Source of the DNA: a virus
Strand: one strand, 5' to 3'
DNA: 41,330 bases
Virus record (IMG/VR): IMGVR_UViG_3300049893_002378
Span: 1-41,330 of that record
In this document: positions 4,091 to 41,330 of the stretch, piece by piece
Position numbering within the stretch: the first letter of the stretch is position 1
Layout of the letters: every line of letters starts with the position of its first letter
Position numbers and translations under genes: made by a program
Notes under the pieces: model-generated
What the model was told of the DNA's origin: nothing
The model's input: only the letters and a program-made list of their open reading frames with translations
Database searches by the model: none

Positions 4091-4098
4091 ATAATGGA
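4080..4098 (+). repeat. 19-nt duplicated ribosome-site/start block, copy 2
   Basis: Identical to 3838-3856. Here the ATG (4094) opens a full 200-residue gene, so this copy is the functional one for a long product. Confidence 0.85.
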
Positions 4099-4696
4099 AA
4101 AAGGTTTGAAGGAGTTAGTCGAGATGTGGTTAAGCAAGGCCAAAGGCGATTACGAAAAGGCCCACGACATGGGCGTAAACGAATTACTCCACGACAAAAC
4201 TTTACAAAAACAGCACTTGACTAAGATGATAGTCTGTTACGTAAGCAAATCGCTGCACGAGTACCGCAGCGGCATCAGGGCGGGCACCGTCATAGAGGAA
4301 GTCAACTTACAGGTTAAAGGAAGATCAGGGGAACGGTACTCTACTCTTGAAAACGACATCGTAGATAAGGGCCGCAACCCCCTCCAATCCGGCAAGGCGA
4401 TCAAAGACGCCACTGTTGAAGAGGTCATCGAGGACATCTTGAAGTACCAAAACAACCTGCGCGGCAACTGCCGGAACGTGGCCTTCAACTTCGCGTCGAT
4501 TCGAGGTCTTGAACTCAAAGACGTAGTGGGCAAAAAGGTAAGCACTACGATGTTCAGTTGCCACTGGGCAGAATCTGAAAAGGTCGGGGAAGAATACGCT
4601 AATTACATCATCAACAGTTTAGCGAAGAAATACAGTCGACAATTTAGCGCGACCGCCTACTTAGTGCGACCGGCTATTCAATGCGACGCGATTTAG
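4094..4696 (+). CDS. Hypothetical protein, 200 aa, ending inside the first repeat array
   Basis: A 200-residue soluble, mixed-charge protein with a strong ribosome site in the copied 19-nt block. I recognise no domain. It contains a Lys/Asp/Glu-rich helical N-terminus (about 1-60), a middle region around DIVDKGRNPLQSGKAIKDA, and a C-terminal part with two Cys residues (GNCRNVAFNF and FSCHW). Its TAG stop (4694-4696) is made of the last T of the gene plus AG shared with the TTAGACCA at the start of the first repeat unit. The coding region therefore runs directly into the array with no gap. It may belong with the array and the IS110-like gene downstream; that is a position argument only. Confidence 0.7.
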   Translation: MEKGLKELVEMWLSKAKGDYEKAHDMGVNELLHDKTLQKQHLTKMIVCYVSKSLHEYRSGIRAGTVIEEVNLQVKGRSGERYSTLENDIVDKGRNPLQSGKAIKDATVEEVIEDILKYQNNLRGNCRNVAFNFASIRGLELKDVVGKKVSTTMFSCHWAESEKVGEEYANYIINSLAKKYSRQFSATAYLVRPAIQCDAI

Positions 4697-4928
4697 ACCA
4701 TCGTGGTACTGTAACCCACGCGCGTGATGTCTTATTTTTATATTAGACCAGCAAAGCGATGTAACCCATGAAACCTATGTCTTATTTTCAGGTTAGACCA
4801 GACCGTGACTGTAACCCAGACTTAACCTGTCTTATTTTCAGGTTAGACCAATAAAGCGATGTAACCCAACAATCTGCTGTCTTATTTTTATGTTAAACCA
4901 TGCCCGTGTAACCCAACTCCGCCTTGTC
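4696..4928. repeat. Array 1 of split-variable repeats: 5 units, 50-bp period
   Basis: Five units follow the pattern GACCA, 9 variable nt, TGTAACCCA, 9 variable nt, TGTC. TGTAACCCA cores are at 4710, 4760, 4810, 4860 and 4907. The first four units repeat every 50 bp exactly, with a 14-nt AT-rich linker (TTATTTTTATATTA or TTATTTTCAGGTTA). The fifth is degenerate: AACCA in place of GACCA and only 6 variable nt before the core. The variable blocks differ in every unit and I see no consistent pairing between the two blocks of a unit. A short AGAC/GTCT complementarity exists between the unit ends. The array fills most of the 308-nt gap between the genes at 4094 and 5005, and I see no other feature there. 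Confidence 0.9.
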
Positions 4929-5004
4929 TATATACTAAGGCCAGCGGCAAGATGCAATCCAATCGGCAGGTGCCTACCTCAAAACCAGAAAGGCCAAAGG
5001 AAAC

Positions 5005-6195
5005 ATGAAATCCAAACAAAACTTGCTTATTAAAGAAAAGACCAGCATGGCAATGCAACCCAAAATCCCGCTGTCTTCAATCAGTTCAGAGCTGCTGCTC
5101 GACTTGAAACGAGCTAGCGAAGAGTACGAAGACGTCTTACGTACCAAAGGCAAAATAGAGCTGGCGCTAAAGGCCAAAGAGCGCCGCTTTATGGCCGCTT
5201 TGGGGCTAAAGAGCATAAAGAAAGGAGGAGTCATAGTAGATCAATTGATGAACGGTAAGCGCGACAAGCTGATGCTCGCTATCCAACATGACGTGGCCAA
5301 GTTTTTAGCTGATAACTATGTCTCTATTGACAAGAAAGACCATAATGGAGATGTAACCCATCCGGGGATTGTCATTAAAAAAGACCAAAATCGTCGTGTA
5401 ACCCATGCACGGTCTGTCATTAAAAAAGACCACCCGTTGACTGTAACCCATATGCGGGGTGTCATTAAAAAAGACCAAAATCACCGTGTAACCCAGGCGC
5501 AGCATGTCTCCAATAACGGCCATCATCAACGTGTAACCCAGGGCCCATCTGCCGACTTGATTCTAGACTTCATCGACAGGCTAAACCCTCATCTAGCCGC
5601 GCTAGAGCCGATATTGACCGAACGCGACCGTTGGGAGAACACGTTAAAACACCTGGCCACTAAGTTACCTGTATGGCCCTGGGTAGAAAGAGACGTTAAG
5701 GGCGTAGGTGGCTCATCGTTAGCTCGCATCGTCGGAGCCACGGTCAACAAGGACTTCGTCACCGGCAAGATACGCTGCATTGACGATTATCCTAGCCCCG
5801 CTAAGCTGTGGAAGCGCATGGGCCTAGGGATGGTCCAGTACGCCGACGGTACCCAGGAGATACAAAAGCGCAGCAAGGAGTACGGCACCATCCACAAGTA
5901 TAATCCCGTCCGCCGCTCGTTGATGCACGTGGTGGGCGAGTGTATAGTCAAAGCCAATGACTATTACAAGAAGGAGATATATGACTCTTACCGCGTCCGC
6001 CTAGAGGCTAAATATCCCGAGTGGGAAACTGCTAAGACCAAAGACGGCGCAAAGGCGCACCCCGGCCACTATAATAAATGCGCTATGCGCTATATGGAAA
6101 AAAAATTTCTAAAAGACCTGTGGGTAGAATGGCACAAGGCGTTAGGGCTGTACGACAGAATTGAGTGCGCAGATAAGACCACGCGCCGAATGTAA
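5005..6195 (+). CDS. IS110/Transposase_20-like (helix-hairpin-helix) protein carrying an in-frame repeat array
   Basis: A 396-residue protein. Residues 1 to about 108 are helical and charged and do not resemble the RuvC-like DEDD domain of IS110 transposases. Residues 112-184 are five 15-residue repeats of the type KKD(H/Q)xxxxVT(H/Q)xxxxV, encoded by the repeat array itself. Residues about 185-230 form a probable coiled coil. Then comes VKGVGGSSLARIVG, a helix-hairpin-helix matching the GIG motif of Transposase_20, followed by SPAKLWKRMGLGMVQYADGTQ, NPVRRSLMHVVGECI and YRVRLEAKYPEW, in the order seen in IS110-family C-terminal domains. At the place where I expect that family's catalytic serine (often an SG after GLxP), I read DG, so the serine may be missing; this is an eye alignment. 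The stop TAA lies inside the first unit of array 3. The start at ATG 5005 follows AAAGGA. Probable role: nucleic-acid binding linked to the repeats. Confidence 0.75.
   Translation: MKSKQNLLIKEKTSMAMQPKIPLSSISSELLLDLKRASEEYEDVLRTKGKIELALKAKERRFMAALGLKSIKKGGVIVDQLMNGKRDKLMLAIQHDVAKFLADNYVSIDKKDHNGDVTHPGIVIKKDQNRRVTHARSVIKKDHPLTVTHMRGVIKKDQNHRVTQAQHVSNNGHHQRVTQGPSADLILDFIDRLNPHLAALEPILTERDRWENTLKHLATKLPVWPWVERDVKGVGGSSLARIVGATVNKDFVTGKIRCIDDYPSPAKLWKRMGLGMVQYADGTQEIQKRSKEYGTIHKYNPVRRSLMHVVGECIVKANDYYKKEIYDSYRVRLEAKYPEWETAKTKDGAKAHPGHYNKCAMRYMEKKFLKDLWVEWHKALGLYDRIECADKTTRRM
5338..5553. repeat. Array 2 of split-variable repeats inside the coding region: 5 units, 45-bp period
   Basis: Five units with cores at 5352, 5397, 5442, 5487 and 5532, repeating every 45 bp exactly. 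The 36-nt unit (GACCA-N9-TGTAACCCA-N9-TGTC) is unchanged from array 1, but the linker is 9 nt (ATTAAAAAA, or TCCAATAAC after unit 4). The fifth unit is slightly degenerate (GGCCA and TGCC). Because 45 is a multiple of 3, the array stays open in the gene and encodes 15-residue repeats; the core is read as x-GTA-ACC-CA, avoiding its TAA. The same core is read in a different phase at the end of the gene. Confidence 0.92.
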
Positions 6196-6544
6196 CCCAG
6201 CGGTAAGCTGTCTTTAGTAATGCAATGACCAGTCTTATGCTGTAACCCAGTACGCGGCTGTCTCTGATAATAATGACCAGGCGGACGGTGTAACCCAAAA
6301 TCCGAATGTCTCTGATAATAATGACCAGGTAAAAAATGTAACCCAGCGAGAAAGTGTCTCTGATAATAATGACCAGTGTCGCGATGTAACCCAGTAAACA
6401 TTTGTCTCTGATAATAATGACCAGCATCAAAATGTAACCCAGATGAGTACTGTTAATAATTAAGACCATGCGCGCATTGTAATCCATCTCGGTTATGTCA
6501 ATAAGAAAGACCATTCGCAAATTGTAACCCAATAAAAAACTGTC
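6177..6544. repeat. Array 3 of split-variable repeats: 8 units, mainly 48-bp period
   Basis: Eight units with cores at 6191, 6241, 6289, 6337, 6385, 6433, 6478 and 6523. Units 2 to 5 are followed by a 12-nt linker (TCTGATAATAAT), giving a 48-bp period; the first linker is 14 nt and those after units 6 and 7 are 9 nt. Unit 7 has TGTAATCCA instead of TGTAACCCA and unit 6 ends TGTT. The first unit overlaps the end of the IS110-like gene, whose TAA stop is bases 3-5 of the core. The last unit ends 18 nt before the GTG start of the epimerase gene. The array occupies almost the whole 367-nt gap between these genes. Confidence 0.92.
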
Positions 6545-6562: not shown

Positions 6563-7489
6563 GTGAAAATCTTAGTCACCGGAGCCGCTGGCTACTTAGG
6601 CAGCGTACTGTGCGAGTTATTATTAAACGAGGGCCACTCCGTAGTTGCCATAGATGATTTGCGTTACAGGCAAACTTCGCCGTTGAGCTTAATAAATAAA
6701 CCGTTGTACGCTTTTCATCACCTAGACTGCTTTAGCGATAGGATAGAAGAGTTAATACCGGGGTGCGATTTCGTGGTGCCGTTGGCGGCGGTAGTCGGTG
6801 CTCCGGCTTGTGACCGCCACGAAACCGAGGCTTGGCGGGTGAACGCGCACGCCGTGCGTTATTTGGCGGCCTTGGCTACGACTCGCGGCTTCGGTCTCAT
6901 CACCCCTAACACCAACAGCGGGTACGGTACTACGGGGGCCGCCGCCTGCGACGAAACCACGCCGCTCAACCCTGTATCGCGTTATGGAGCCACTAAAAAA
7001 GTAGCCGAGGAATCGACCTTAGAGGCCAATGGCGTGGTGTTTCGCTTTGCTACGCTGTTTGGCGTGTCGCCGCGCATGAGACTTGACCTGCTCGTCAACG
7101 ACTTTACCTTCCGTGCCGTGCGCGACAAGACGCTGGTGTTGTACGAGCCGCACTTTCGCCGTAATTACCTGCACGTGCGCGACGGCGCTAGGGCCATCCT
7201 CCACGCCATGACTAACTACGACTTGATGAGGGGCCAAGCCTATAACGCTGGGATGCCCGATGCTAACCTGACCAAGGCGCAACTGGCGCTGAAAATCAAA
7301 GAGCACGTACCCGACCTGACCATCATGGAATCGGCTGCCGGCTCTGACCCTGATAAGAGAGATTACCTGGTTGATAATACGAAGCTGCTCGCCACCGGCT
7401 GGCGACCTAAATACACGTTGGACCAAGGTGTCGAAGAAGTTATCAAGGCTTATCCGATATTAGCGAGCAGCCTATGGACGAACGCTTAA
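6563..7489 (+). CDS. NAD-dependent sugar epimerase/dehydratase (extended SDR)
   Basis: A 308-residue protein starting at GTG 6563, behind GAGAAGG. The N-terminus carries the NAD(P)-binding MKILVTGAAGYLGS (Gly-rich Rossmann loop), and VAIDD supplies the acidic residue that usually selects NAD. The catalytic Tyr-Lys pair appears in SRYGATKKVAEE (YxxxK). The region around RNYLHVRD and AYNAGMPDANLTK is typical of nucleotide-sugar epimerases and dehydratases. It probably acts on an NDP-hexose or NDP-heptose in the cytoplasm. Its stop overlaps the start of the nucleotidyltransferase gene by 16 nt, so the two form a sugar-activation unit. The exact substrate cannot be told. Confidence 0.92.
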   Translation: MKILVTGAAGYLGSVLCELLLNEGHSVVAIDDLRYRQTSPLSLINKPLYAFHHLDCFSDRIEELIPGCDFVVPLAAVVGAPACDRHETEAWRVNAHAVRYLAALATTRGFGLITPNTNSGYGTTGAAACDETTPLNPVSRYGATKKVAEESTLEANGVVFRFATLFGVSPRMRLDLLVNDFTFRAVRDKTLVLYEPHFRRNYLHVRDGARAILHAMTNYDLMRGQAYNAGMPDANLTKAQLALKIKEHVPDLTIMESAAGSDPDKRDYLVDNTKLLATGWRPKYTLDQGVEEVIKAYPILASSLWTNA

Positions 7490-8097
7490 GCAACTACGAC
7501 GTCTTGGTCCTCTGCGGCGGCTACGGTACGCGCCTAAAGGGCATCATCCCCGCCGGCCTGCCCAAATGCCTAGCCGACGTCAACGGCAAGCCCTTTTTAT
7601 ATTACCAACTTGATTACCTAAAGCGTCAGGGTTTTCGAAAAATCGTGTTGTGCACCGGGTACGGCAGCTCCCTCGTGCAGCAGGCGACTTACAACTGGGC
7701 AGATAGGCAACGTTGCTTGTTCTCTGACGAGGGCACGCCTAAAGGCACCATGAACGCCGTTAGAACGGCCATCTTATCGTTAGCTAAATGCGGCTTGACG
7801 AATGAGTTTTTTATAGTTAACGGCGATACTTATTTAGACACCGACTTGGAAAAGCTAGCGGCCCCGGTAAGCGAGAAGATCATCTTTGGAGTATCGCCCC
7901 AATTTCAGCCAGTAGGGGTATACAAAGCCTCAGCCTCATTTTTTCTGCTGAACGATAGCGAATCATTTCACAACCTAGAAGACGCCATTATTCATCGTCC
8001 GCTAAGCTGTACCTGGCGTCTGGTAAAAGAGCCGTTTCACGACATTGGCACGCCTGAGGGGCTGGCTATTTTCCGCGCTCTAGCCAAGACCCTATGA
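7474..8097 (+). CDS. Sugar-phosphate nucleotidyltransferase (HddC-like guanylyltransferase family)
   Basis: A 207-residue NTP_transferase-fold enzyme. The nucleotide-binding signature LCGGYGTRLKG is followed by LPKCLADVNGKPFLYYQLDYL, and the metal-binding VNGDTYLD and the C-terminal HDIGTPEGLA fit the family. The combination LPKCLAxVNGKPF ... DIGTPE is characteristic of D-glycero-D-manno-heptose-1-phosphate guanylyltransferases (HddC), though a hexose-1-phosphate enzyme is possible. It starts inside the epimerase gene and probably supplies an activated sugar for the glycosyltransferases elsewhere in the window. Its 3' end overlaps the convergent DegT-like gene by 32 bp. Confidence 0.88.
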   Translation: MDERLSNYDVLVLCGGYGTRLKGIIPAGLPKCLADVNGKPFLYYQLDYLKRQGFRKIVLCTGYGSSLVQQATYNWADRQRCLFSDEGTPKGTMNAVRTAILSLAKCGLTNEFFIVNGDTYLDTDLEKLAAPVSEKIIFGVSPQFQPVGVYKASASFFLLNDSESFHNLEDAIIHRPLSCTWRLVKEPFHDIGTPEGLAIFRALAKTL

Positions 8098-9202
8098 CGC
8101 TGGCCACGTGCTGGCAGTCTTCCTCTGACATCCCTTCATGACAACCAAAGTGCAGCCCCGTGCGGCCTATGCGCTTGCTGACGGGAGCATTGTCAACGGC
8201 GCTGCCGAACTTGGCAAACGCTGAGTGAGAATGAGGCAACGAGCCGAACAGCGTTTTGCACTCCACCCCGCGATTTTCTAGCCAGGTGTAAAGAGAGGTC
8301 ACGGCAGCCATCTCATCTCTTAGTAACAGAGGAAAAGCGTGTGGCGCTATGACCTCGTTGGCCTCGTCACGGTACAGGATTAAATCGTCCTCGTATGGGC
8401 TGAGTAGGTCCAGTAGCCGCTGGCGCACCTGACGACGGACCTTGAACGTCTCACTGAAATTAGCCAGCGACTCTAAGGCCACGGCGGCGTGTAGATCAGA
8501 CCACTTGGCGTTGAAGCCAACGCGCTCAAAGCTAAAGTAGCTACTCCCCGCTGGCCTGCCGTGGCTCTTGATAGACCTACACATCTGCGCCAGATCGTCG
8601 TCATTGGTAACAATCACGCCGCCCTCTACGCCGACTATCAAGTGAGCCGGGTACAGGCTGTAGATGGCCGCGTCGCACAGGTGGTCGGCGGGCTTGCCGT
8701 CTAGCAGCGCCCCGTGAGCTTCACAAAAGTCACCCACCAGCGGCTTGTTATAGCGCCGGGCGACCTCTTTCACCACGGGTAGGGGCGATGCCTTGCCCAT
8801 AGTGGCCACAAATTGGATGCCTAATATCGTGTGCCGCAGCGGGATGGACGCTGCCAGTTTCAGCGGATCTAGGTTTAACGTGCTCGGTTCTACGTCTACA
8901 AATACTGGATTGAGCCGAGCGGCGGCTAAGCAGCTAGCCGTGGCCACGAAGGCGCAGGCCGGAGTCAAAACGTCAACGCCCCTGTGTCGTTCGGCCAGCG
9001 CCGCCCACACTACCTCTCCGGCGGTGGTGCCGCTAGAGGTAGCGATAGCGTGGCGCCAACCGAACTTGCGTTTAAACTCGGTCTCAAACTCCGCCGTCAG
9101 CAGCCCCTCAGTCAGCTGCCCGCTCGACAGCGCCCGCTCGATATTATCACGGGCTTGTTGTCCGATGACTACCCTGCCAAATGGGATACCGCCCTGCTGC
9201 AT
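8066..9202 (-). CDS. DegT/DnrJ/EryC1-family PLP enzyme with His at the lysine site (probable sugar 3-dehydratase)
   Basis: A 378-residue fold-type I PLP enzyme. I place the start at 9202 because AAGGAGG lies just before that ATG; a longer reading from 9220 would encode the ribosome site itself. Family features include ATSSGTTA (phosphate-binding turn), TPACAFVATASC, FVDVEPSTLNLD and DFCEAHGA (Asp to the PLP nitrogen). At the position of the usual internal-aldimine lysine, the motif reads YSLYPAHLIVGVEGG, so lysine is replaced by histidine. This is the hallmark of ColD and of the CDP-6-deoxy-hexulose 3-dehydratase E1 group (their motif is SFYPAHHIT-type), which remove the C3 hydroxyl rather than transaminate. 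I infer a deoxysugar-forming step. Confidence 0.88.
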   Translation of the reverse strand: MQQGGIPFGRVVIGQQARDNIERALSSGQLTEGLLTAEFETEFKRKFGWRHAIATSSGTTAGEVVWAALAERHRGVDVLTPACAFVATASCLAAARLNPVFVDVEPSTLNLDPLKLAASIPLRHTILGIQFVATMGKASPLPVVKEVARRYNKPLVGDFCEAHGALLDGKPADHLCDAAIYSLYPAHLIVGVEGGVIVTNDDDLAQMCRSIKSHGRPAGSSYFSFERVGFNAKWSDLHAAVALESLANFSETFKVRRQVRQRLLDLLSPYEDDLILYRDEANEVIAPHAFPLLLRDEMAAVTSLYTWLENRGVECKTLFGSLPHSHSAFAKFGSAVDNAPVSKRIGRTGLHFGCHEGMSEEDCQHVASVIGSWLERGK

Positions 9203-9225
9203 GCCCACCCTCCTTAACATCGCTC

Positions 9226-37925: not shown

Positions 37926-40900
37926 TCACGCTCGATAAGCCCCCTCATAAGGAGCAAACTTTGCCTGTAACAACTTTTCAATGACCAATTTGGCCTCTTC
38001 TTTGTCCACGGCCCTGAACCGCGTGGTGCCGTTGAGCTGGGCATTCGTCGGTTTCACGTCAAGCGACACACAAACCTCCGTGCCCTGACCCAAATACGCC
38101 AGCGCCTCGGAGTAATAATTAGTCGCGTCCTCAGCCAAAAAGGCGTAGTCCCCCGTCAAAAAGTTCTTACGATAAGCCGCCACCACTTTTTCCAGTAGCG
38201 CTCGGACCTCTGGCGTTACCCTACGCCCGTTAGACTCCATCGCGTACTTGGCCAGGTGCATGTTGTCGCGCATGTCGTATAAGAATATACCTAATACTCG
38301 TTCTGGGTACTTCAGCCGGTCGCACTCCAACAGCTTCAAGTTACGCCAAAACCGCTTGCGTCTAATGGTCTCAGTCAGGTAGCCGTCGTGGTGTATGTGC
38401 ACGTCGTTCAACAGCATGCACCCAGCGCCTACTCCCCTGTTGATACCTAGCTCAAAGTGCTCGTGCACCTTGCCGTAACACGAGATGCCCACCCTATTGC
38501 GGAACAGTCTCACTGGGATATCCTTCTTCAACACACCCGGAGGGTCCACCGCTATGTGGTGCTGCGGCACGGCGTAGCCTAGCAGGTGATTGGCTCTCAG
38601 GTACTTCCACAAGCAACGCCACTCCAGCAGGTCCTCGTCCGAGTCTATCCACAATATCCAATCGGTCCAGGCGGGCTCAACCGACTCGTTGCGCGGCGTC
38701 TCAAACCCGGCCATCTCGCAGACCCCTGGTTGAATGCTCATCGGGTCGTGCTCGGTGACGTGAGCGTAACACCAGAACGGGCTGGTCCCCGCGTAGATGT
38801 CCTCGGTGTACTCCGCAACCACGTTAACGGTACGGTCGCTCGACGGCCCGTTATCTAAGATGACTATCTGATCGGCTATCCTGTTAACTGACCTCAAGCA
38901 GCGGTGAATCACGTCCTCGTTGTTGTTGGTGATCATGCACACGGCTACGGTCTCACGCGGCCCCTGGAGCAGGAACTTGCGCTCGTAGTCTATCTTGCCC
39001 ACCGGCTTGTCGTCTTTACGATAGGCCGCCATGTACCACCCGGCAAACGTCCTATCCAACTCCAGCTCTTTTAGATCGCTGAACGCCTGCAGCTGGAAGT
39101 CCTGGCGATGACCAAACAGATCCAACAAGTCGTGCTGGTCAAAGGCATGCACGTGAACGGGCGGCACCTGCTTTATCACGAACTCATCGCGCTCGCGGTT
39201 GCCTATCGGCACGGTAAATACCATCCAACCGTTAGGCTTGCAGTGTTTTTCGAGCTTGGCGATAGCCCCCTCTATATCAGGCAGGTGCTCTAGCGTCTCC
39301 ATGCAGACGACGCAGTCATATTGCTCAGGCAGCGCGACCTCGTCCCCACCGCAAACGAAGTCCACGTTGTCGGGATAAAGAAAAGCTGGCGTGCCGTCGG
39401 GCAGCTGCGCCTGCCTCAGCTCCTCGGCACACCGGATGAGGGAGGGAGATACGTCCACTCCTGTGACACGGAGGGTAGGGCTAATCGTGTTGGAGATTGT
39501 ACGGGCGTATCCCCCATGGGCGCAGCCAAAATCAAGAACCGAATTGATCTCGTTCTTGCGCTGCGAGAGGAACTCCAGCAACACCTTGAGTCTTGGCTCG
39601 GTGTCTGCCCAAAACGCCGTGCGGTAATCCGCGTCAGCGCCGCCGCTGCGTTCCTCATAAAATTGGGCCAAGGCGCGTTGCTGGGCCGCGCCGCTCAGCT
39701 TTAAAAACGGCATAAAGCGGTCGACGTGACGGTCCACGGCCCGCTGAAGCACGGAGTCTCCCAACTGCTCAGCGTACTTTTGCGCCGCCACTACGTCGGA
39801 GCGGAACAGGAAGTGCTTGATCACACGACGCGGCTCACTGCTCTTAGCAAATATGATCTCGTGAAACAGCTCCGTCCACTCCTCCGCCACAGGCCCCCAC
39901 TGCCACTTCTCGGCCCGCTGCCTACCGGCCTTCTGCAGCTGCTCGTAGCGCGAGTCGTTGTGCATCAGGTCGACGGTCTGCTCCACAAAGGCCTTGATAA
40001 AGGCATCCGTTACCGGCTTAAAGCCTGGGTCAACCGGGTCGCCCTCTTGACCAATAGATCCGTCGTCTTTGATCAACACATGACAGCCCGCGCAGGTCTC
40101 CGGTAATGCCGCTTTCCAAGGACCAACCATCACATCATTGCACGCCGCTACTTCCATTGAAGTGATGCAATTATGCACGACAATTCCATTAGCTACGAAA
40201 TTGTGCGTGTCGTCTACCTCCATGCAGTATGCATCGGCGTCATCGGCATGCTCAATAGATACTACAACGTGATTCTCCTCCTGTTGTAGTCTACGATTGT
40301 TCCAACCACGTTTTGCAGCTGTACTCCTGAAGACGTGCTCTTCCTCGGCGGATTTATCCGCGTGCATATTATGGAGCAATGCAGTCTTTTCGGTTATTCG
40401 CTTAGCGCGTTCTTCAGCATCTAGCCTTTCCCAATAGTTCCTTATATGCAGAGAATGGGCTGCCCAAACTTGCAGATTACTCGGATCATTATTGCTCGGA
40501 TCGCCATCTAGATGATCGACTATCTCGCGCATAGATAGCTTTCGCCCAAGCATCATTTCTGCTACATAGCGGTGCTCAGGCACTCTATCCGATAGGTTAG
40601 ATCGACTGACATACCAGTAGCGTTTAGTCAGGCCGTCTTTTCTATGTTTAAATTGTCCGAAACCGGGAGTCCTGCCAAAAGGCATTAGCCGATCACCAGG
40701 CTTAAGAGCATCCGCCCTTACATACTCACCAGACCTGAGCATCACTTCATGATCTGGTGTTAGAGTAAGTGTAGTTTCACAACGAGCCTTGCAGCCCGCC
40801 GTCGGTTTCATCCGAATAGTCAACATTTTGGTATTGAGGCGAGTTCGCACGACGCGATTTGCCTTGGCCAACACCATTCGTTTTTCATTTACATCCCACG

Positions 40901-41330
40901 ACCAAACCCAGAAGTTACGTCGATTTTCCTTCCACAAATTCTCTATCGTCTCTCTGCCGCTTGGCATGTCAACGATAGAATCGCCGCGAAGTGGAGAAAT
41001 CTCTTCAAATACGCTCGGATAGAGTTGTAGCCGCGCCTGCTTGTAGTGAGTGTACAGCTGCTCCTTGCCCAGGTTGCCGAGGTCTATCACCGAGTCACCG
41101 TACTGCTTGGCAATTTGCGCCAGCTCGGTATAAAGCGGCAAGGTAGCCGGATCGGAGTATCTGGAAAGATAGAGCTTGGCCCGCGGCTCGCGTCTTAATA
41201 TCTCTGGCCATACTCGCGTCAACAAGATATCTAGTCCGCGCTCGGGCCTAGCCGTGAACATCAGCTTAAAGCGATCACGCTGCTGAGCAGGCACCTTGTC
41301 AATGAGGCCCAGGTCGATCCCGTTGCGCGT
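37926..41330 (-). CDS. GT4-methyltransferase-GT2 fusion protein interrupted by an intein (5' end outside window)
   Basis: The frame is open to base 41330, so the N-terminus is missing; counting from GTG 41294, 1122 residues are visible. Residues 1-100 and 376 to about 482 are the C-terminal half of a GT4-type glycosyltransferase (LYLSRYSDPA, LYPSVFEEIS joined to CITSMEVAAC). Residues 101-375 are an intein. Residues about 570-770 are a class I SAM methyltransferase (VLDFGCAHGGYA, VTGVDVSPSL, CMETLEHLPDIEGAI). Residues about 782-1040 are a GT2-type glycosyltransferase (VAVCMITNNNEDVIHRCLRSV, IVILDNGPSSDRT and the DxD-like WIDSDEDL). A helical C-terminus follows. It would build and methylate a glycan on the virion or host. 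With the epimerase, nucleotidyltransferase and DegT-like gene it forms a sugar pathway. Confidence 0.85.
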   Translation of the reverse strand, partial: TRNGIDLGLIDKVPAQQRDRFKLMFTARPERGLDILLTRVWPEILRREPRAKLYLSRYSDPATLPLYTELAQIAKQYGDSVIDLGNLGKEQLYTHYKQARLQLYPSVFEEISPLRGDSIVDMPSGRETIENLWKENRRNFWVWSWDVNEKRMVLAKANRVVRTRLNTKMLTIRMKPTAGCKARCETTLTLTPDHEVMLRSGEYVRADALKPGDRLMPFGRTPGFGQFKHRKDGLTKRYWYVSRSNLSDRVPEHRYVAEMMLGRKLSMREIVDHLDGDPSNNDPSNLQVWAAHSLHIRNYWERLDAEERAKRITEKTALLHNMHADKSAEEEHVFRSTAAKRGWNNRRLQQEENHVVVSIEHADDADAYCMEVDDTHNFVANGIVVHNCITSMEVAACNDVMVGPWKAALPETCAGCHVLIKDDGSIGQEGDPVDPGFKPVTDAFIKAFVEQTVDLMHNDSRYEQLQKAGRQRAEKWQWGPVAEEWTELFHEIIFAKSSEPRRVIKHFLFRSDVVAAQKYAEQLGDSVLQRAVDRHVDRFMPFLKLSGAAQQRALAQFYEERSGGADADYRTAFWADTEPRLKVLLEFLSQRKNEINSVLDFGCAHGGYARTISNTISPTLRVTGVDVSPSLIRCAEELRQAQLPDGTPAFLYPDNVDFVCGGDEVALPEQYDCVVCMETLEHLPDIEGAIAKLEKHCKPNGWMVFTVPIGNRERDEFVIKQVPPVHVHAFDQHDLLDLFGHRQDFQLQAFSDLKELELDRTFAGWYMAAYRKDDKPVGKIDYERKFLLQGPRETVAVCMITNNNEDVIHRCLRSVNRIADQIVILDNGPSSDRTVNVVAEYTEDIYAGTSPFWCYAHVTEHDPMSIQPGVCEMAGFETPRNESVEPAWTDWILWIDSDEDLLEWRCLWKYLRANHLLGYAVPQHHIAVDPPGVLKKDIPVRLFRNRVGISCYGKVHEHFELGINRGVGAGCMLLNDVHIHHDGYLTETIRRKRFWRNLKLLECDRLKYPERVLGIFLYDMRDNMHLAKYAMESNGRRVTPEVRALLEKVVAAYRKNFLTGDYAFLAEDATNYYSEALAYLGQGTEVCVSLDVKPTNAQLNGTTRFRAVDKEEAKLVIEKLLQAKFAPYEGAYRA
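40170..40994 (-). other. Intein (275 aa) with HNH homing endonuclease domain, Pro at position 1
   Basis: The flanks VFEEIS and CITSMEV rejoin to a normal GT4 motif, placing the ends at Pro (40994) and Asn (40170) with Cys at +1. Block A reads PLRGDSIVDMPSGRETIENL, block B TLTPDHEVMLRSG, and the C-terminal blocks AYCMEVDDTHNFVANGIVVHN then Cys. Position 1 is Pro rather than Cys or Ser. Block F carries Cys where most inteins have Asp. Residues about 138-185 of the intein are an HNH domain (VPEHRYVAEMMLGRKLSMREIVDHLDGDPSNNDPSNLQV). The intein appears more AT-rich than its host gene. Confidence 0.85.

Follow-up and report, generated by a model that had tools for sequence, protein, structure and literature searches.

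A phage TIGR-TasA locus with repeat units inside the tasA gene that may be read both as guides and as protein

A phage tasA gene is flanked and entered by dual-spacer units

We analysed a stretch of viral DNA of 41,330 nucleotides (IMG/VR virus record IMGVR_UViG_3300049893_002378; hereafter the window), in which a repeat with two variable 9-nt blocks surrounds and enters one gene at 5005-6195. By sequence comparison, this gene and its arrays are a member of the TIGR-Tas family of RNA-guided DNA-binding systems, known since 2025 (Faure et al. 2025, PMC12045711), and the gene encodes a nuclease-less TasA protein. The initial annotation had put the locus forward as a candidate new guide-type system, a claim that does not stand, given the published family; what is new relative to the main text of the discovery paper (PMC12045711) is the placement of units inside tas. 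We consider it quite probable that this is a phage-borne TIGR-TasA system in which the embedded units serve both as guide and as coding sequence.

A scan for the frame GACCA-N9-TGTAACCCA-N9-TGTC with at most three mismatches gave 18 matches, exclusively on the + strand and all within 4696-6544 (expectation in shuffled sequence 0.03). The repeat is therefore real, and its extent and its layout before, inside and after the gene had been annotated correctly. The annotated number of 18 was reproduced by the frame scan, but three units had been missed, namely 4896-4928 and, recovered by a structure-aware scan, 4939-4974 and 4992-5027. The total is 21 units in three blocks of eight, five and eight units, arranged around tasA as follows.

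4696-5075, + strand: TIGR array 1, eight units with a pitch of 43-53 nt; edge TGTC-N14-GACCA in the first units
4696-4731, 4746-4781, 4796-4831, 4846-4881, 4896-4928, 4939-4974, 4992-5027 and 5040-5075, + strand: the units of array 1
4992-5027, + strand: start-spanning unit, GGCCA-AAGGAAACA-TGAAATCCA-AACAAAACT-TGCT
5005-6195, + strand: tasA, 396 amino acids, nuclease-less TIGR-Tas protein
5338-5553, + strand: TIGR array 2, five units with a 45-nt pitch, in frame inside tasA
6177-6544, + strand: TIGR array 3, eight units starting at 6177, 6227, 6275, 6323, 6371, 6419, 6464 and 6509

A full-length unit measures 36 nt (5+9+9+9+4). As annotated before, the 9-nt blocks, or spacers, differ in every unit while the flanking boxes are constant. 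In the unit at 4896-4928 the first spacer (spacer A) is shortened to 6 nt, and the unit at 4939-4974 reads GGCCA-N9-TGCAATCCA-N9-TGCC. The flanks of the boxes covary, with GACCA/TGTC in 16 units, GGCCA/TGCC in two and GGCCA/TGCT and GACCA/TGTT in one each, and the two pairs adjoining the boxes are kept in 20 of 20 full units via GA/UC, GG/CC, GG/CU or GA/UU. All 20 full units carry the TG and CCA boxes and spacers of 9+9 nt. This is the anatomy of published TIGR arrays, in which two repeats with UG/CCA boxes alternate and enclose dual spacers of 8-12 nt, and of the published 36-nt tigRNA, which has a loop repeat, a box C (CCA), a box D (UG) and a pair of 9-nt spacers (PMC12045711). The earlier idea of a multi-unit split-guide array was thus borne out. 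Rfam contained no match for the locus, and PADLOC detected no system.

The protein is a nuclease-less Tas protein

TasA consists of an unstructured stretch (residues 1-27), coiled-coil helices (28-65, extending to 104, and 183-218) and a C-terminal Nop-type domain (224-394). It scored 101.7 bits against the curated NCBIfam equivalog NF052498 (TIGR_Tas; cut-off 100), which was matched by all 43 aligned sequences. A profile of its relatives found TasR (9mty, E 8e-21) and TasH (E 1.7e-8) in the PDB, and a Foldseek search with the predicted fold ranked TasR and TasH first, followed by ISCro4, Prp31 and Nop5. Family searches detected no nuclease domain (DEDD/RuvC or HNH) in the protein, and none precedes the coiled coil in the AlphaFold2 (AF2) model, which makes it a protein of the TasA type.

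The initial annotation had described the protein as IS110-like. This holds for the RNA-binding domain, which is related according to the profile, Foldseek and the NCBIfam family transpos_IS110 (matched by 26 of the 43 aligned sequences), but the protein itself is a Tas protein. An IS110 transposase was rejected because the N-terminal DEDD/RuvC-like domain is missing (transposon ends were not searched for), and an AmiA-like Pfam match (E 0.0085) was rejected because it lies below its cut-off and partly over the array-encoded repeat. TasA also matches phrog_4285, which bears the misleading label 'transposase, integration and excision'; phage annotation that relies on this label will conceal TIGR-Tas loci. 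The single-sequence query (P0001) was insufficient to reach the relatives, as it returned no viral relative, no meaningful PDB chain and one Rhizobium phage match; a two-sequence alignment was used instead.

Units overlap the start, middle and end of tasA

Array 1 continues past the start codon of tasA. The start-spanning unit holds a Shine-Dalgarno-like AAGGAA inside spacer A, the TG of the ATG start codon forms its box D, and the eighth unit (5040-5075) lies within the coding sequence. At the other end of the gene, the stop codon TAA falls within the loop repeat of the unit at 6177, with which array 3 opens. Array 2 corresponds to residues 112-183 and encodes the pattern D-H/Q-xxx-V-T-H/Q-xxx-V-I-K-K. 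In the AF2 model this peptide is predicted to be disordered (predicted local distance difference test, pLDDT, about 37-57) and lies between coiled-coil helices with pLDDT >90. The flanking helices are also present in relatives, and their conservation on both sides implies that, provided the gene is functional, the insert is translated. In array 2 the box codons (GAC/GTA/ACC/GTC) are kept at synonymous sites (P 5e-10, based on codon usage), while the spacers differ. No terminator-like site was found on the sense strand between 3500 and 7000, so the whole stretch could be a single transcript; promoter calls at the locus were weak.

Related loci also carry units inside tas

The relatives comprised 48 viral and 11 bacterial loci. 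Most of the bacterial ones come from Alphaproteobacteria, and some duplicate members of the viral set. Units in the relatives belong to the stem-loop type and share the boxes and the 9-nt spacer length of the window. The unit scan of the 48 viral loci, a Rhizobium phage and the window gave 125 units in sense orientation, compared to 2 in antisense and 2 in shuffled sequences. The link between repeats and the IS110-like gene, which had been suggested as a check in relatives, was therefore recovered: units cluster at tas and on its strand in 49 related loci. Across 18 complete or nearly complete viral records, few units lay away from the tas locus.

When searching with the box motif only, 48 units were found inside tas open reading frames (ORFs) of 22 loci (42 in 21 relatives and 6 in the window), against 0 in antisense and 0.4 after codon shuffling. 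Arm pairing was not used when selecting these units in the relatives. The arms of the 42 pair at 6.74 of 8 positions, compared to 4.35 when re-dealt (z 13.4), and units outside tas are comparable (6.63 of 8). Since stem complementarity is kept in the in-ORF units of the relatives, RNA structure is constrained inside the coding sequence. An independent stem-loop scan gave 52 sense, 5 antisense and 1.6 shuffled units. In the reading frame, 36 of the 48 in-ORF units are in phase 2 (P 4e-9), 12 in phase 1 and none in phase 0; phase 2 is the one in which neither loop type contains a stop codon. The units lie in N-terminal leaders, at the coiled-coil tip (locus L021 and the window) or in C-terminal tails (L020 and L045). 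In the Tas tree the in-ORF trait is scattered, with 15 changes, and the window is placed on a long branch (2.85), which leaves its exact position unsure.

A partner gene recurs upstream of tas

4094-4696, + strand: partner gene, 200 amino acids; helical in the AF2 model (predicted template modelling score 0.38), no Pfam family

A family of about 200 amino acids is encoded upstream of tas in 35 loci, often overlapping the tas start by a few bases; in most relatives it is the immediate upstream neighbour. A hidden Markov model (HMM) built from the viral members, with the window excluded, found the family in 11 of 11 bacterial loci (E 1e-10 to 1e-56) and in a 266-kb viral contig that encodes Tas. 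The window gene at 4094-4696 matched this HMM weakly (E 0.0019), and its place and size fit; it therefore likely belongs to the family. In five loci (L018, L035, L037, L045 and L055) units were also found inside the partner gene. Searches of the partner family gave no ParB match in Pfam or PHROGs, no other Pfam family and no PDB fold match, the last being limited by a low-confidence fold model. As far as these tools tell, the family is distinct from the published TasParB.

Some of the related loci are worth describing. In Rhizobium phage RHph_X2_25 (L010, 3160-4750 of MW960032.1), tas is accompanied by the partner gene and stem-loop TIGR units, one of which lies inside tas at about codon 97; as a cultured phage it offers a ready laboratory model. 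The 266-kb viral contig (L009, 2853-4694, − strand) carries tas, the partner gene and scattered stem-loop units, and one of its units has exactly the GACCA/TGTAACCCA/TGTC frame of the window. Two loci of Rhodoplanes elegans DSM 11907 (L065 and L066, NZ_NHSK01000074.1) lie 63 kb apart on the same contig with identical tas coordinates and an identical set of eight units, which represents either a duplicated prophage or an assembly effect.

A model in which the tas messenger is also a guide precursor

In the TIGR-Tas family, Tas is required for processing to 36-mers, and the two spacers address opposite strands (PMC12045711). By analogy with the family, we infer a guide function for the units of this phage. 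The arrays would be transcribed in the same direction as tas and processed to 36-nt tigRNAs, each with the order box C, 9-nt spacer A, box D/loop/box C, 9-nt spacer B and box D. A dimer of TasA, which lacks a nuclease, would bind each tigRNA, with the two spacers pairing in tandem with both strands of a DNA site, where bound TasA would block or bend the DNA rather than cut it. The embedded sequence would have two readings, one as guide RNA and one as a disordered peptide that the protein tolerates. If the tas messenger is read as a tigRNA precursor, as the TnpB mRNA is for omegaRNA, one transcript would give both guides and effector. Binding or cutting of units within that messenger might then block or destroy it and so lower or cap TasA output, most directly at the start-codon unit. 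Such feedback on the TasA level through messenger-borne units is conceivable from the arrangement, although we rate it somewhat below an even chance. We propose just as tentatively that this extends to a large group of phage TIGR-TasA loci, in which the mRNA of the effector (and partner) would be the tigRNA precursor, the overprinted guides would be functional, and tas expression would be subject to feedback through capture by TasA, which in this phage would act at the start codon.

Several points speak against this model. The locus is known here from its sequence. The units of the window lack the long stems of the relatives (the stem next to the boxes has only 2-5 bp, with a stem z of 0.7-1.8 versus 13-16 in relatives), and what speaks for a constraint at the RNA level in the window is the identity of the boxes, which could equally stem from a recent duplication. 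Among the relatives, the N-terminal cases depend on the chosen start codon, whereas the tip and C-terminal cases are independent of it. Furthermore, when tested in E. coli, TaTasR protected against neither phage nor plasmid uptake. Finally, the search with spacer pairs that had been suggested earlier yielded no target in the phage, the related viral records and one host genome. The pattern used was spacer A, 0-2 nt and the reverse complement of spacer B, together with the mirror order. Self-targets in the window scored like those of re-paired spacers, targets within the own record of the 18 related viral records and the window averaged 14.06 versus 14.01 (a pooled search was likewise null), and five guides of the Rhodoplanes prophage gave no match better than 2 mismatches in their own host genome. 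These null results fit foreign targets and prove nothing.

The internal units might alternatively be relics of an array that was captured into frame, encoding a harmless spacer peptide while guides come only from the flanking arrays. The predicted disorder of the internal segment agrees with this, as does the last internal unit, which has drifted to GGCCA/TGCC with a different linker. However, that unit retains complementarity through a paired change, array 2 keeps its box codons at synonymous positions, and the in-ORF stems of relatives pair as well as those outside, where relics would lose pairing. We therefore regard relics as unlikely. It is far less probable still that the repeats encode a functional peptide repeat, for instance for DNA or partner binding by the basic V-I-K-K-D stretches, with the RNA shape as a by-product of origin. 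The five internal units do share one frame and similar peptides, but the same nucleotide unit occurs in non-coding arrays rich in stop codons, synonymous positions are kept, and relatives place units at the N-tail, the tip, the C-tail and in another gene. Equally improbable are DNA sites for partition or binding by TasA or the partner without an RNA precursor, an idea that can draw on the ParB-like partner of some TasA loci and on the upstream partner in the window, whose fold has no match, but that conflicts with the strand bias of the units (125 versus 2), with stems and boxes that match processed tigRNAs of the family, and with a partner family without ParB match.

A dual reading of the embedded units as guide and coding sequence would have practical consequences. 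Searches for arrays that consider intergenic DNA alone would overlook a large part of the guides, and the recurrent embedded guide units of the phage TasA group come with a conserved partner protein. Overprinted guide units offer a concrete handle on maturation and dosage control in TIGR-Tas.

Other genes in the window

Directly after array 3, the region 6563-9220 encodes sugar-nucleotide genes (NAD-dependent epimerase, nucleotidyl transferase and DegT aminotransferase), which perhaps serve glycan modification. An ORF of 1122 amino acids at 37926-41294 (− strand) contains an intein (splicing domain 116-375 with an HNH endonuclease), followed by a methyltransferase and a glycosyltransferase family 2 domain.

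Comparison with known systems

IS110/IS1111 transposases with their bridge or seek RNA share a related RNA-binding domain with TasA. In contrast to them, TasA lacks the N-terminal DEDD domain and the window holds many guide units. TnpB (OMEGA) makes omegaRNA by processing the mRNA that encodes it (Nety et al. 2023, PMC10278001) and resembles our proposal in that the guide RNA comes from the messenger of the effector. It is, however, an unrelated nuclease with one guide per transcript as described, whereas here many units lie at the start, middle and end. In the TasParB-TasA operon, known from some TasA loci, a ParB-like gene adjoins tasA, whereas the upstream family gave no ParB match.

The TIGR-TasA dual-repeat arrays (e.g. 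FpTIGR; PMC12045711) have in common with the window a nuclease-less Nop-domain protein, 9-nt spacers, CCA/UG boxes and a phage-borne location. Their edge repeats are 8-12 nt long and constant within a locus, whereas those of the window measure 18-23 nt, occur in several versions and differ between the three blocks. By protein sequence the window is like the TIGR-TasA stem-loop arrays (PMC12045711, Fig. 7), as its relatives carry stem-loop units; in these arrays a palindromic stem replaces the edge, whereas the window combines its 2-5 bp with a conserved edge. The window array is thus a form between the two published types, with long block-specific edges and no stems. The main text of the discovery paper places arrays upstream and/or downstream of tas, and neither this main text (PMC12045711) nor a review mentions units inside tas. 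Arrays 1 and 3 flank tasA as in the published loci; in the window, units additionally run through the gene itself, with array 2 lying wholly inside it.
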